NCBI GenBank assembly: GCA_013177855.1
Contig: JABLYA010000001.1
Coordinates: 2,560,983-2,624,982 of the forward strand
DNA: 64,000 bases
DNA from: Ignavibacteria bacterium
GTDB lineage: Bacteria; Bacteroidota; Ignavibacteria; Ch128b
Reading direction: 5' to 3'
Shown here: piece by piece, positions 504 through 10,614 of the stretch
Layout of the letters: the number at the start of each line of letters is the position of its first letter
Numbering within the stretch: position 1 is the stretch's first letter
Position numbers and translations under genes: made by a program
Notes under the pieces: model-generated
Seen by the model: only the letters and a program-made list of their open reading frames with translations
Database searches by the model: none
Told to the model about the DNA's origin: nothing

Positions 504-1569
504 TTCTCAACCTCGAACGAACTCCACTGAAAATTAAAATTAAACTATACAAAAATTCTGCGAAAGGTATGATGTAAAATGGATAATCAACTTTTATGAT
601 TGAACTGATTCTATTAATTGAAAGAACTTTTATGACCCAGTTGAAAAAAATAAAACTCAATAAGAATGGATCGAGAGTAATCATTGCAATTACTAAAAAA
701 ATATTAAGAGAGATATTCCCTCCATAAATAAGAGCAAGAATAATTTTAAGTTCGATCGGATAAAATTTACTTGCAGAAATGTGACGGCTTTTTTGTCTTA
801 TATAACTTTTAAAGTTTCTCGCACACTTAGTGAAAACAATTGAATCAGCATTTTCGATTAACTTTACATTTGCATTGTGTTTCAATGTGAGCTGAAGAAA
901 CAAATCATCATCACCGCTGAGCGATTTTTGAATTTTCTCAAATCCACCAAGTTTTTCAAATAAAGATTTCCTATAACTTAAATTTCTTCCATATGACATA
1001 TAAGGATAACCAGCGTTGTGGAATGCAGTCATCAATATTGAGGTGAATAAATTTTCATATCGAGCTAAATAATTAACGAGAGATTTTTCAGCCACAAAAG
1101 GGGAGTAGCCATAAACTAAGTCTATATTTTCATCAAATTCATCATTAATTGATTTAATCCAGTTCTGTTTTGGAATGCAGTCAGCATCAGTGAATAAAAG
1201 AATTTCACCTCGAGCATTGGCTATTCCGGTCTTGAGTGCATTCTTCTTTCCAGGATTGAAGGCATTCTTAATTAATCTAAAGTTTGGTTTATCTGAAATC
1301 AAATTTTGAGCAAGCTTGAACGAATCATCTTCAGAGAAATCATCAACAAGGATTACTTCAAATTTATCGACTGGATAATTTTGGTTTGAAAGAGAACTTA
1401 TGAGAGTTTCGAGATTAAAACTCTCATTTCTAAAAGCCACAATCACACTTATAAAATTTTCTTTCTTAGAAACAGATACCCGATTTTTTCTTTTGATAAA
1501 TAGGGCAATTAAAATAATTACATTCAGAGTTGTAATGTAAACGATTAAAATCGAGATTATTGAAAGCAA
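487..1569 (-). CDS. Membrane-anchored family 2 glycosyltransferase
   Basis: A 360-residue GT-A fold glycosyltransferase of family GT2, expected to move a sugar from a nucleotide-sugar donor to a lipid or glycan acceptor at the inner membrane. Residues 1-25 form an N-terminal membrane helix. The catalytic domain follows with ISVIVAFRNES, the donor-binding LVDDFSEDD, the DxD-like FTDADC and the acidic SGDDDLFLQL. The usual QxxRW element appears as RQKSRHIS. Two or three hydrophobic segments close the protein (about 270-350). Start is TTG directly after the TAA of the upstream lipoprotein gene, with GAGG nine bases before it. Acceptor and donor are unknown. Confidence 0.85.
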   Translation of the reverse strand: MLSIISILIVYITTLNVIILIALFIKRKNRVSVSKKENFISVIVAFRNESFNLETLISSLSNQNYPVDKFEVILVDDFSEDDSFKLAQNLISDKPNFRLIKNAFNPGKKNALKTGIANARGEILLFTDADCIPKQNWIKSINDEFDENIDLVYGYSPFVAEKSLVNYLARYENLFTSILMTAFHNAGYPYMSYGRNLSYRKSLFEKLGGFEKIQKSLSGDDDLFLQLTLKHNANVKLIENADSIVFTKCARNFKSYIRQKSRHISASKFYPIELKIILALIYGGNISLNIFLVIAMITLDPFLLSFIFFNWVIKVLSINRISSIIKVDYPFYIIPFAEFLYSLILIFSGVRSRLRIVNWK

Positions 1570-3198
1570 TTATCTCTGCCTCAAAATTTTAGATTTTTCT
1601 TTCAGTGATATTACTTCGTTAAAGAAAAATCTTGGATCCAGATTGTAATAACCAATTTCAACGAGGAATTTATCTTTAGATAACTCTCTGTTTTTTGTAA
1701 AGAAGTTCATTAGATAAGTCCTCAAATCAGAATTTTTGAACCAAACATTTCCAAATTTTTCACGAATTCTCGTTTTCATCATTGCCTCGGTAAAAATTGC
1801 ATTTAACTGTTCTACCTCTGCGAAATAGTCATTTAATGATAAAAACAATCGAGCTTTGTCACCTGGCAGCAAATTGAATCCAAGAATAGAATTATAAATT
1901 TGAATCAGACTATCCGGATTTGTTTGTGATGAATCTATCATCAAATACTCAACAATAAAATCGGCACATAATTTTCGCACATTGAAAAGTTTATTAAACG
2001 ATCTTTGCTTTAAGAAATTTGAAATCACTCTTGAAGAATTGAATAGATTATCTTCAAGAAATTTTTCTTCATCCAGCAGGTTTCCAAAGAGGTTGGAAAA
2101 TGTAAGAGGAATTACATCTCCACCAAAATATTTAATTTCAAAGAATTCATTTTTTGTAAATAGTTCAGGTAAGAGCTTCCCACATTCACTAAAAGCTTTA
2201 TAATAGCTTTCACATCCATTCGCTAAATCTAAAATTAGATTACTTTGTTCCGGAATTCTAATAGTAAAACCTCGAGTTTTTACAGGTAAGATTAATTTTG
2301 CTTTTCGTTTGTCTCTTTGTTCAAAAGCTATTTGCAAATTTGGCAGGCTATCAATCTTAAATCCGATTTGATAGAATGTTCTAAGAAAAATGTTTTGCAA
2401 ACTGTCTGATTTAAAATATCTTTCATATCGTGGATCTTTAGTTAGAGAATAGATATCTGAACTATTAAAATAGTCCTGTGAATACCTTTGAATTCTAAGT
2501 AATTCATAAAGTTGTTGAAAGTAAAAATCATTTGTTGAAGAAATGAAGTCATTTACGGTTGAATAAAATTTAGAGAGATCTTCCTGACGGATCATTGAGG
2601 CAAATTGGAGATACGAACCAAAGTTTAGAGAGTCGAGGATAATTTTTTTCCTTTTTTCCAGTAATTGTATTTGAAGCTTTTGCAGATTTTCTAAACTGTT
2701 GAGATTAGAATTATAAACACTTTTTCTCAGTCTTGGATTTGATTCATTTGTGAGATATTCTTTTAAGTCATCGAGTTTAAATTTTCCCTTGCGGGTTGAG
2801 AATGTAATTTCGTTTTTAAGTCTTTCGATTTGATCTTGCAATTGTGCAGTCTCTTTTTCGACAATCTTTTCATAAATGAAAACTTTTAATCGTTCTAACC
2901 TCTCAATTCTTTCTGGCCTTTGTTCAAGTTTTAGAAGATTGTTTATCAAATCAATATCGTTCTGGCTGAAAGTCTTATCATATTTTTTATAAAGATTTGA
3001 GATTAGAAACGGTTGGTTTTGAACATAGCTCTCATATTTAAGTTGATTGTATTCAATAACAAAATTTGAAATAACATTTCTGAGAGAATCAACTTGTCCT
3101 CGATAAAATTCGAGCTCATCTCTTTTAGCTCCTGGACAACCTAAAAGATTTATTAAGACTAAACTGGAAGAAACAATTATTAAAATTTTATTCTTCAT
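1570..3198 (-). CDS. Lipoprotein resembling an M3-type zinc peptidase that has lost its zinc ligands
   Basis: A 542-residue lipoprotein with a type II signal peptide and lipobox LLGC (Cys21), then an alpha-helical region rich in charged coiled-coil stretches (about 85-190). Residues about 309-385 follow the layout I know from M3-like gluzincins: an RGF.I..P segment, a helix that should carry HExGH, a YLGDNSVTE-like turn and a helix rich in F and L. Here the HExGH position reads SECGK (337-341), and the third-ligand Glu position is Leu365. All three zinc ligands therefore appear to be absent, while the catalytic-site Glu338 remains. This suggests an envelope pseudo-peptidase, perhaps a binding or scaffold protein. 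The resemblance is from memory of the family, not from a search. The gene overlaps the helicase gene by 11 bp. Confidence 0.55.
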   Translation of the reverse strand: MKNKILIIVSSSLVLINLLGCPGAKRDELEFYRGQVDSLRNVISNFVIEYNQLKYESYVQNQPFLISNLYKKYDKTFSQNDIDLINNLLKLEQRPERIERLERLKVFIYEKIVEKETAQLQDQIERLKNEITFSTRKGKFKLDDLKEYLTNESNPRLRKSVYNSNLNSLENLQKLQIQLLEKRKKIILDSLNFGSYLQFASMIRQEDLSKFYSTVNDFISSTNDFYFQQLYELLRIQRYSQDYFNSSDIYSLTKDPRYERYFKSDSLQNIFLRTFYQIGFKIDSLPNLQIAFEQRDKRKAKLILPVKTRGFTIRIPEQSNLILDLANGCESYYKAFSECGKLLPELFTKNEFFEIKYFGGDVIPLTFSNLFGNLLDEEKFLEDNLFNSSRVISNFLKQRSFNKLFNVRKLCADFIVEYLMIDSSQTNPDSLIQIYNSILGFNLLPGDKARLFLSLNDYFAEVEQLNAIFTEAMMKTRIREKFGNVWFKNSDLRTYLMNFFTKNRELSKDKFLVEIGYYNLDPRFFFNEVISLKEKSKILRQR

Positions 3199-7460: not shown

Positions 7461-7673
7461 TTATTTGATAACTTTTACTTCTGCAGCTTGCAATCCTTTT
7501 GGACCTTGCTTAACTGAGAATTCTACTTTATCATTTTCTGCTAAAGTACGGTAACTATTACCAAGAATTGATTGATAATGAACGAATACATCCTCGCCAT
7601 TATCTTGAGTAATAAATCCGTAACCTTTAGAACTGTTGAACCATTTAACGGTTCCTCTTCTTCGCTCTGACAT
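7461..7673 (-). CDS. Cold-shock domain protein (CspA family)
   Basis: A 70-residue single cold-shock domain that binds single-stranded RNA or DNA. RNP1 is KGYGFI and RNP2 is VFVHYQSI, after the typical start [11 protein letters not shown]; the C-terminus [20 protein letters not shown] is also standard. It has its own terminator and a long upstream region without genes. By analogy with other csp genes this region may hold a structured 5' leader: an arm CAGAC/GTCTG is visible about 110 bases upstream of the start. Whether it is cold-induced or constitutive cannot be read from the sequence. Confidence 0.95.
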
Positions 7674-7901
7674 ATCAGAAGCTCCTTTAATAATTTGTTA
7701 ATGATTTTGTTACTGAGACAGGTTTGAAGTTGATGCTTTAAGGAAGCTTTCTGAAGGTTCGAAAATTTTTGTTTCTACTACTACAGACTTACAAAACAAC
7801 TGTCTGCTAATTCAATATAGGTATAATAATGTTAGAAACCTAATTTTTGGAAAAAATAATTTATTATAAATAATCTCGGTTTGATTTAGATCACAAATCT
7901 C

Positions 7902-7957
7902 TAATCTCCGAGTAAGATTAAAGAATAATATTAATCCAGAGATGTACTCGGTGATTA
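7902..7957. repeat. Nested inverted repeat able to form a long hairpin
   Basis: Outer arms at 7902-7914 and 7945-7957 match at 12 of 13 positions (TAATCTCCGAGTA against TACTCGGTGATTA). Inside them a second perfect pair, GATTAA (7916-7921) and TTAATC (7931-7936), shares the same axis. It is not followed by a T run on the plus strand, so it is not a typical terminator. It could be part of a small RNA, a leader fold or a protein-binding site. Confidence 0.5.
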
Positions 7958-8327
7958 ATGTCAAAAAAATCCAACCCTGATTTATTGAATGTGAGCTTCA
8001 AAATATTTTGGAAGGACTTTTGTGCAAGAGAATATTTTAGATGATTTGAAACAACTTATTTTATAAATGAAGCTCTTCATGTTTCTTTAAATTTTGCTCT
8101 CTTTCCATCAATACAATTGGAGGCTACTCGTAGTGAAACTTTTTGAGGAATTTGCTTCTTCGGTTTTCATTATTTTCAAAAAGCAATCTGTGGGAAATTA
8201 TATTAAACGTTTTCTTTGATCTTTGATGATCTATCGTTGAATTAAATTTTTTGATTTGTTCTTTTATGATTTTTTATTACTAAAAATTTTAATTAATGAA
8301 TGATAGTTCAAAGAGCTGAAAAATAAA

Positions 8328-8400
8328 AACCATGAAGTGGTGAAATTACTTTAGACCTTAAATTGATCCCACAAAAGTAAAACTCCGAAGGAGTGATATT
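8328..8400. repeat. Two REP-like palindromic units
   Basis: Two short units share one layout: AACCATGAAGTGGTGAAATTA from about 8328 and AACTCCGAAGGAGTGATATTA from 8381. Each has an interrupted palindrome (ACCA/TGGT and ACTCC/GGAGT) around a GAA-containing loop, followed by GA-ATTA-like sequence. Their starts are 53 bp apart. They resemble the dispersed palindromes that accompany REP-associated transposases in other bacteria; no transposase is nearby. Confidence 0.4.
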
Positions 8401-8712
8401 ATAAAAAATGAACGGAAAATTGGTCAATTAGTAAAATTCGATTTTTTTGTTTTGAAATCCTGTTAGATGTGTAGAACTTTAAAATTTTCTGATCCTTTTA
8501 TCTTGTCTGAAAAAATTTCATCCGTTCTGAATTTTATTTTTGTATCTATGATTGTTTGTCTAAGCTTAAAATTAGAACCTTTTCACCTGCTTAATGGAGA
8601 AAATATCTTTCATTAAAAAATTAACTTTACATAGACCACTGGACTTGATAAAATAAAATCTTAAAGATAGCTTGCACAAGAAGACAACAAAAAAAATGAA
8701 AGGAAATAAAAA

Positions 8713-9174
8713 ATGGATAAGGAAATAATAAATAAAATTATCGAGATTCTTGGTAAAGAATCTTCGCTCAAAATAGCCTGCGGTATTTCAAGAAGAGGTC
8801 CGATTGATCTTGAACTTGACAAAAATAAAATCGAACGTGCGAGAATGTTTGAGATCGTAAAACCAGACTCACTCGAATTAACTGAGATGGGTAAAATTTT
8901 CGTTGCTAAAACCATATTTGACTATACAGATAATATGGTTGATGGCGATGATGAAGATGAAGACAAAGAAAAATTAGATGATGATGAAGATTGGGAAGAT
9001 GATGAAAATGATGACGATGATGATGAAGACGATGAGGAATTTTGGGAAGACGAAGACTGGGAAGAAGATGACGATGAGGATGAAGATTTCGACGATTGGG
9101 AAGAATGGGAAGAAGATGAAGACGAGGATGATGACGATTATTTTTCACCAGGAAGAAAAAGGCGAAGAAAATAA
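8713..9174 (+). CDS. Protein with a small folded N-terminal domain and a long Asp/Glu tail
   Basis: A 153-residue protein. Residues 1-75 look like a compact alpha/beta unit resembling a winged helix (INKIIEILGKESSLKIACGI, then SLELTEMGKIFVAKTIF). Residues 76-145 are almost entirely Asp and Glu with regularly placed Trp and Phe (EEFWEDEDWEEDDDEDED), and the last residues are basic (GRKRRRK). The layout recalls the delta subunit of Firmicutes RNA polymerase (winged helix plus acidic tail) or a DNA-mimic protein, but this is inference from layout only. It has a good ribosome site (AAAGGAAA, eight bases before ATG) and its own terminator, so it is a monocistronic gene. Confidence 0.75.
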   Translation: MDKEIINKIIEILGKESSLKIACGISRRGPIDLELDKNKIERARMFEIVKPDSLELTEMGKIFVAKTIFDYTDNMVDGDDEDEDKEKLDDDEDWEDDENDDDDDEDDEEFWEDEDWEEDDDEDEDFDDWEEWEEDEDEDDDDYFSPGRKRRRK

Positions 9175-9196: not shown

Positions 9197-9246
9197 AAAG
9201 TTGAAGTTTTATCAACAGCGTTTTGATGAAGCTTCAACTTTTTTGT
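9197..9246 (+). terminator. Rho-independent terminator after the acidic-tail gene
   Basis: Ten-base arms AAAGTTGAAG (9197-9206) and CTTCAACTTT (9232-9241) pair perfectly, with an inner ATCAA/TTGAT pair, and are followed by TTTTG-rich sequence. Confidence 0.8.
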
Positions 9247-9318: not shown

Positions 9319-10614
9319 ATGAAGAAAATCTATATAGAAGAATTAGATAAGTATATTGGACAGGAAATAGAACTTTCAGGTTGGGTAACTCATAAAAGAT
9401 CAAGCGGCAAGATTCGTTTCATTGTAATGCGAGATGGTTCTGGTATTTGTCAGCTGGTGCTTGTTAAAAATTTACTTCCCGAAGAAGTATTCAATAAATT
9501 CGATGAGCTGACGCAAGAATCTTCTTTCAAAGTTTTTGGATTAGTAAAAAAAGAAGAACGTGCACCAGGCGGATTCGAAATTGAAGTTAAAGATCTCCAG
9601 ATAATACATATCGCAAAAGATTATCCGATCACTCCGAAGGAACATGGAATTGAGTTCCTGATGGATCACCGTCACTTATGGTTAAGATCAAGCCGTCAAC
9701 ACGCAATTTTAAGAGTTCGACACGAGATTATTAATGCAATCCGAACATTCTTCAACAACAAAGGATTTATTTTAGTTGATGCACCAATCTTAACTCCAGC
9801 TGCTTGCGAAGGCACAACAACACTTTTTGAAACAGAATATTTTGATCTGGGCAAAGCTTATCTTACTCAATCCGGTCAACTTTACGCCGAAGCAGCTGCA
9901 ATGGCATTTGGAAAAGTTTATACATTTGGTCCAACTTTTCGAGCAGAAAAATCAAAGACAAGAAGACATTTAACTGAATTCTGGATGGTTGAACCTGAAG
10001 TTGCTTTTGCAGATTTGAACGACGATATGGATTTAGCAGAAGAGTTTGTTGAGTACATTGTGCAAACTGTCATTAAAAATAGAAGAAAAGAATTGGAATT
10101 TCTTGAGAGGGATATTTCGAAACTTGAAAATGTAAAACGACCATTCCCCAGAATTCATTATGAAGAAGCAATTGAGATCTTAAAAAGAAATGGGATAAAT
10201 TTCGAATGGGGAAATGATTTTGGTGGAACGGATGAAACAGTAATTTCAGAACAATTCGATAAGCCCGTAATGATTCATCATTATCCTGCTCAGGTTAAAG
10301 CATTTTATATGAAGCGAGACCCTAATGATGAAAGATATGCACTTGCAGTTGATATGCTTGCACCCGAAGGTTATGGTGAAATAATTGGTGGAAGTCAGAG
10401 AGAAGATGATTACGAAACACTTCTAAAACGAATTGAAGAACATAACTTACCAAGAGAAGCCTTTGAATGGTATCTCGATTTACGAAGGTATGGTTCAGTC
10501 CCGCATTCAGGATTTGGACTTGGTATCGAAAGAACAGTTGCCTGGATTTGTAAACTTGAACATGTCAGAGAAACCATTCCATTTCCAAGAATGATCTATA
10601 GAAATACACCTTAA
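9319..10614 (+). CDS. asnS: Asparaginyl-tRNA synthetase
   Basis: A 431-residue class IIb aminoacyl-tRNA synthetase that charges tRNA-Asn in the cytoplasm. The N-terminal OB-fold anticodon domain (about 1-105) is followed by the catalytic core. [11 protein letters not shown] leads into class II motif 1 ([18 protein letters not shown]), motif 2 is [21 protein letters not shown], roughly residues 213-233, and motif 3 is [14 protein letters not shown] near residue 400. The wording of motif 1, with AACEGTT, fits AsnRS rather than AspRS. A strong promoter sits just upstream, and only 23 bp separate it from nuoJ with no terminator, so it probably leads the nuo transcript. Confidence 0.95.

Follow-up and report, generated by a model that had tools for sequence, protein, structure and literature searches.

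Gene Locus and Genomic Context

The window, by which we mean the whole 64,000-nt stretch of DNA analyzed here, lies in a 3.66-Mb genome of 10 contigs and carries on its plus strand an open reading frame (positions 8713-9174) for a 153-residue protein with a strongly acidic tail. This reading frame, for which the preliminary description gave the coordinates and strand found in the ORF list, is a real gene, as attested by orthologs with conserved start, tail and genomic context and by the NG86 substitution rates in the N-terminal domain. The encoded protein consists of an N-terminal domain (residues 1-78, positions 8713-8946), delineated by an AlphaFold2 model of residues 1-81 and by 34 columns that are invariant in the alignment of three orthologs; an acidic, aromatic-spaced tail (residues 79-146, positions 8947-9150), which is recognized by its composition in all three orthologs and is predicted to be disordered from its low pLDDT; and a terminal basic cluster GRKRRRK (residues 147-153, positions 9151-9171). 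Upstream of the start codon, the ribosome-binding-site-like sequence GAAAGGA (positions 8698-8704, plus strand) is identical in all three aligned upstream regions. The gene is followed by an intrinsic terminator with a 19-bp stem and a T-rich tail (positions 9197-9241, plus strand), which was detected by a pattern scan, has a fold z-score of -5.8 and agrees with the earlier claim that the gene has a terminator of its own; the corresponding hairpin is strong at ortholog locus L003 (z-score -7.7) and absent at L004 (z-score 0.1).

The acidic-tailed protein gene is located between the divergently transcribed cold-shock protein gene csp (positions 7461-7673, minus strand; cold-shock domain PF00313, E-value 8.1e-28) and a class II aminoacyl-tRNA synthetase gene (positions 9319-10614, plus strand), which we take to be asnS and which is followed by presumable nuo genes, the names of these downstream neighbors being assigned by sequence and not by family search. 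The gene order csp, acidic-tailed gene, asnS, nuo is kept in all three genus members compared. Outside the genus, we inspected the region upstream of the synthetase gene in five genomes (L043, L042, L045, L046, and L048), two from another genus of the same family and three from other families, and none of these five regions, including about 840 nt in L042 and 570 nt in L046, contains an ORF of the acidic-tail plan; the L044 contig ends 42 nt upstream of the synthetase gene and is uninformative.

The gap that precedes the acidic-tailed gene covers positions 7674-8712 in the window; in L003 and L004 it measures 284 and 347 nt, respectively. The preliminary description of a 1-kb gene-free region is thus correct for the window, but this length is species-specific, and about 165 nt of the region constitute the conserved leader of csp. 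This leader (positions 7674-7840, minus strand) has a mean column identity of 92% over 191 columns in the three genus members, and it is nearly unchanged although the synonymous sites of the neighboring gene are saturated. Its fold is predicted without covariation, the Rfam cspA model scores 34.9 bits on the leader plus coding region versus a cut-off of 78, and all Rfam matches near the acidic-tailed gene fall below their gathering scores; the leader may be a conserved regulatory leader. For the segment at positions 7861-8700 (840 nt, 26.9% GC), neither the rest of the window nor the equivalent place in the two relatives offers a long match; this segment may be an insertion particular to the species or a sequence in decay.

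Composition and Conservation of the Acidic Tail

The last 75 residues of the protein (79-153) comprise 53 Asp/Glu, nine Trp/Phe/Tyr and eight Lys/Arg, with a net charge of -45 and a calculated pI of 4.05; residues 1-78 have a net charge of -2, within the range of -2 to -3 for the N-terminal domains of this family. The preliminary description spoke of a nearly pure Asp/Glu tail of 70 residues: the tail is indeed strongly acidic, but "nearly pure" is a little strong for the densest 70-residue segment, which contains 55 Asp/Glu. The runner-up among the 60 window ORFs with an ATG start and at least 80 codons has 23. The spaced aromatic residues and the basic end noted earlier are both evident from this composition and from the terminal GRKRRRK. 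At the nucleotide level, the entire genome contains five runs of nine GAN codons, all of them within the acidic-tailed gene, while the reversed pattern, which served as a control, has no matches in the genome; by the standard of this genome, the tail is therefore exceptional. An 11-codon GAN pattern has no match, the longest GAN runs in the gene being shorter. Across the class, nine-GAN runs are not unusual: 35 of 80 genomes, this one among them, have at least one.

Acidic tails were also read on other proteins in loci L071-L099, from plus-strand patterns only. Two STAS-domain (PF01740) proteins of 237 and 239 residues, in L086 (genome G079) and L088 (genome G059), have long Asp/Glu-rich C-terminal tails and share the tail idea on a different domain. 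A 120-residue protein in L079 (genome G011), which combines a 60-residue N-terminal part that has no Pfam match with a 60-residue acidic tail, is a possible analog.

An acidic tail with Trp/Phe residues is present in all three orthologs; in the two others it is shorter and less charged (net charge -30 and -24). The basic end is retained in each of the three proteins as GRKRRRK, GPRRRK, and GKGRRR. Pairwise identities are 0.41-0.49 for the tails and 0.49-0.64 for the N-terminal domains, compared with 0.20-0.24 for shuffled tails, and thus both the composition and some of the residue order are kept. The preliminary description had made its reading depend on relatives that share the tail, and the orthologs do share it.

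A polyanionic tail with Trp or Phe every few residues in all three orthologs would suit a protein that acts as a chaperone of, or a decoy for, some basic nucleic-acid binder (a cold-shock, HU-like or ribosomal protein), in which case the tail would mimic nucleic acid and keep the partner soluble or inactive and the N-terminal domain would dimerize or add specificity. The constant csp neighborhood also fits such a role; however, the unrelated neighbors asnS and nuo are equally constant and nothing links the protein directly to a basic partner. Moreover, the tail is predicted to be disordered and the model has no DNA-like folded surface. On balance, we consider this role quite unlikely. For the DNA-mimic protein that the preliminary description named as an alternative, in which a folded surface would copy the charge pattern of DNA, the predicted disorder speaks neither for nor against, as the tail might fold on a partner.

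Predicted Fold of the N-Terminal Domain

AlphaFold2 with the three-row alignment predicts residues 1-81 as a compact domain with a mean pLDDT of 90.4 and a pTM of 0.78 (four of the five domain models are near pLDDT 90 and one is at 50). The predicted elements are helices 3-13, 15-23, and 37-45, a short hairpin at about residues 48-57, and a long helix 58-77; this helix-hairpin-helix layout is in keeping with the winged-helix-like domain suggested in the preliminary description. Helix 37-45, in the position of a recognition helix, carries the invariant residues K39, R42, and R44 and is preceded by an invariant GPID loop. In the full-length model, pLDDT is about 45-51 over most of the tail, which is accordingly predicted to be disordered.

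A Foldseek search of the PDB and a viral library gave no match at an E-value of 0.001 or lower. VIA-align comparison of the Foldseek candidates yielded best Z-scores of 4.1 for the domain model and 4.3 for the full model, with nearly all matches being winged helices of the MarR, PadR or HxlR type at weak Z-scores of 3.5-4.3. Since a Z-score of about 4 does not reach the level at which kin can be told from a common arrangement, the term winged-helix-like is fair but not proven for the modeled domain. The likeness to MarR, PadR, and HxlR proteins lies in the order of helices, the wing, and the post-wing helix; the differences are that the N-terminal domain has no match to Pfam or NCBIfam families, is not basic overall, and is followed by an acidic tail.

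These matches to DNA-binding proteins, together with the three invariant basic residues on the putative recognition helix and the divergent csp arrangement kept in all three genomes, would suit a winged-helix regulator with an autoinhibitory tail. In such a protein helix 37-45 would read DNA, possibly in the intergenic region between csp and its own gene, while the tail would compete in cis and tune the affinity. However, a net charge of -2 to -3 is unusual for a domain that reads DNA, the three aligned upstream regions share no conserved operator-like block besides the ribosome-binding site, and the Z-scores of about 4 may reflect a mere common arrangement; we therefore regard a regulator of this kind as unlikely.

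Family searches returned little for the N-terminal domain. Pfam has no match at an E-value of up to 10 with residues 1-75 of the window protein or residues 1-81 of the three orthologs, the NCBIfam search of the N-terminal domains gave one chance match (glucuronate isomerase, E-value 0.15), and PHROGs gave no credible match. The PADLOC model PDLC01849 of a CARF-wHTH protein (CARF3) matches two of the three orthologs weakly with its end, at residues 8-64 and 11-63 (E-values 0.011 and 0.027); the matched end is presumably a winged helix. The match is below significance, and the acidic-tailed protein has no CARF domain. Toxin B chains, which appeared in a sequence search against solved structures (E-values 0.16-0.48), were discarded as partial matches that share no context.

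Orthologs, Distribution, and Selection

At an E-value of 0.01 or lower, the N-terminal domain was found in 3 of 149 genomes (this genome and its relatives), namely in this genome and two other members of the genus. The two other orthologs have 144 and 137 residues, and in the 81 aligned columns of the N-terminal domain they share 52% and 47% identity with the window protein. For residues 1-78, the NG86 dN values of the three pairs are 0.40, 0.38, and 0.30, whereas one pair has a dS of 1.6 and the other two are saturated, so that their dS is not computable, a contrast that points to purifying selection on the N-terminal domain.

Searches beyond these genomes did not extend the family. A contig search with the single protein found nothing, and one with the three-row alignment returned just the two genus members (L040 and L041, both metagenome-assembled Ignavibacteria). 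The three-row profile matched 19 of 391 genomes of the class at an E-value of up to 0.1, comprising the three orthologs and 16 partial matches (E-values 0.006-0.098), and 42 of 395 genomes of the phylum, a set that overlaps with the former, with 41 of these matches being weak (E-values 0.018-0.098). ORFs at two of the 16 weak class loci, L017 and L014, were inspected and include no protein of this plan. We treated the weak partial matches (E-values above 0.006) as chance, with the proviso that loci beyond these two could hide a distant relative. No orthologs were found for other genera in these three genome sets, or in searches of viral contigs, phages, and plasmids. The literature covered by our search, which has most subscription journals outside it, yielded no published account of the protein. 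Judged from these sequence comparisons, the acidic-tailed protein is a genus-restricted orphan and represents a conserved unnamed family.

This restriction to one genus would also be natural for a protein with an altogether different function, related for example to the membrane, translation or metals, in which the tail would provide solubility or cation binding; acidic runs turn up fairly often in genomes of the class, even on unrelated domains such as STAS. Yet purifying selection on the N-terminal domain is clear, the domain is predicted with confidence to be a winged-helix-like unit, and the basic C-terminus, which mere solubility would not need, is kept. We find such an explanation somewhat improbable.

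Comparison with the RNA Polymerase Delta Subunit and Sigma Region 1.1

The delta subunit (RpoE; HARE-HTH domain, PF05066), known from Gram-positive bacteria such as Bacillus, docks on RNA polymerase between the beta-prime shelf and jaw, and nucleic acid is displaced. The acidic-tailed protein resembles delta in combining a folded N-terminal domain of 80-90 residues with a disordered tail of 75-83 residues and similar net charge (-45 here and -47 in delta), and in both proteins a cluster of opposite charge is attached to the tail. They differ in that the basic cluster is at the C-terminus in all three orthologs and at the start of the tail in delta, and in that the wing is followed, in the model of the N-terminal domain, by a C-terminal helix of 20 residues, which delta is not known to have. 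In the Bacillus subtilis protein, residues 1-90 are folded and residues 91-173 form a disordered acidic region with a net charge of -47, the first 70 residues resemble sigma region 1.1, abolishing the basic stretch at the tail start makes the delta effect stronger, and sigma factors that lack region 1.1 are favored by delta (PMC7749165).

The preliminary description had compared the plan of the protein to delta, and with respect to layout and tail charge this likeness holds. Membership in the delta family is not upheld: besides the different location of the basic stretch, the HARE-HTH family (PF05066) has no match at an E-value of up to 10 in the window protein or any of the three orthologs. 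The hhalign probabilities are 0.04% against one HARE-HTH domain and 0.22% against residues 1-100 of Escherichia coli sigma70, both comparisons being of low power with three rows and an Neff of 1.6 (MarR reached 0.12%). When a single HARE-HTH stretch was used as a phmmer query to gather delta sequences, none were retrieved. Delta and sigma region 1.1 do not appear in the lists of structure matches, which is not evidence against either. The structure matches of both models are too weak to speak for or against a HARE-HTH fold of the N-terminal domain. The comparison with delta is therefore one of likeness, with kinship unproven.

The genome has a sole protein with sigma70 region 3, which is 285 residues long (L102, positions 1261-2118, minus strand; genome G000, contig C2) and contains regions 1.2, 2, 3, and 4, with region 1.2 starting at residue 15 and no match to region 1.1. 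The Pfam scan for sigma70 covered four of the six genomes of the family, and in the remaining two the open frames are 292 and 285 residues long. Moreover, region 1.1 (PF03979) scored above the cut-off in none of 61 genomes (this one and its relatives) versus 6 of 14 controls, and a published account describes the primary sigma factor of Bacteroidetes as lacking region 1.1 (PMC6847099). Thus, the main channel of RNA polymerase would here be free of sigma region 1.1, and an acidic tail acting in trans would face no competing region 1.1. A channel-occupying role like that of region 1.1 is conceivable for the acidic tail in trans; unlike region 1.1, the tail belongs to a separate protein, and PF03979 has no match in the three orthologs. 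The relatives searched lack region 1.1 as well and have no acidic-tailed gene, so that the structure of the sigma factor is compatible with such a role and not diagnostic of it.

Proposed Role of the Acidic-Tailed Protein

Tentatively, we propose that the protein may be a tethered polyanion whose target is a machine that handles nucleic acid, with RNA polymerase as the likeliest candidate. We favor this reading over the others discussed above but consider it doubtful. The small winged-helix-like domain would dock on the machine, and the disordered tail with its charge of about -45 would enter a positively charged nucleic-acid channel, where it would compete with DNA or RNA. This competition could result in release and recycling, or in less non-specific binding, in the manner of the Bacillus delta subunit. 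By folding back, the basic C-terminus may restrain the tail, a part that in delta falls to the basic stretch at the tail start.

Several observations argue for the tethered polyanion, including the delta-like layout and charge, the acidic-aromatic tail with its basic end in all three orthologs, and a sigma70 lacking region 1.1, a type of sigma factor that delta favors. Others argue against it: the N-terminal domain shows no kinship in sequence to either HARE-HTH or sigma region 1.1, its nearest folds are MarR, PadR, and HxlR proteins, which are weak matches and not delta, the tails of the two relatives carry weaker charges of -30 and -24, and the neighboring genes csp, asnS, and nuo give no pointer to transcription. 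The restriction of the gene to one genus also counts against it, because the partner would have to manage without the acidic-tailed protein in all relatives. A more specific version, in which the protein would be a convergent, non-homologous delta, appears improbable to us. Within a phylum that has no region 1.1 in its primary sigma, this Ignavibacteria genus would then have built a polymerase accessory subunit of its own by joining a winged helix to a polyanionic tail, and the regulatory basic patch would sit at the tail end opposite to that in delta.

If the protein does bind RNA polymerase, the clearing of nucleic acid from polymerase by a tethered polyanion would have arisen independently outside Gram-positive bacteria, and this in a lineage with no acidic region 1.1 in its sigma factor. 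Otherwise, the orthologs still constitute a conserved family that has no name and whose design is simple and open to testing.

PF05066 matches two other proteins of this genome, of 246 and 341 residues, both of which lack an acidic tail. The 341-residue protein (L063, positions 1276-2301, plus strand; genome G000, contig C8) combines the HARE-HTH domain with a MUG113 domain (PF13455).
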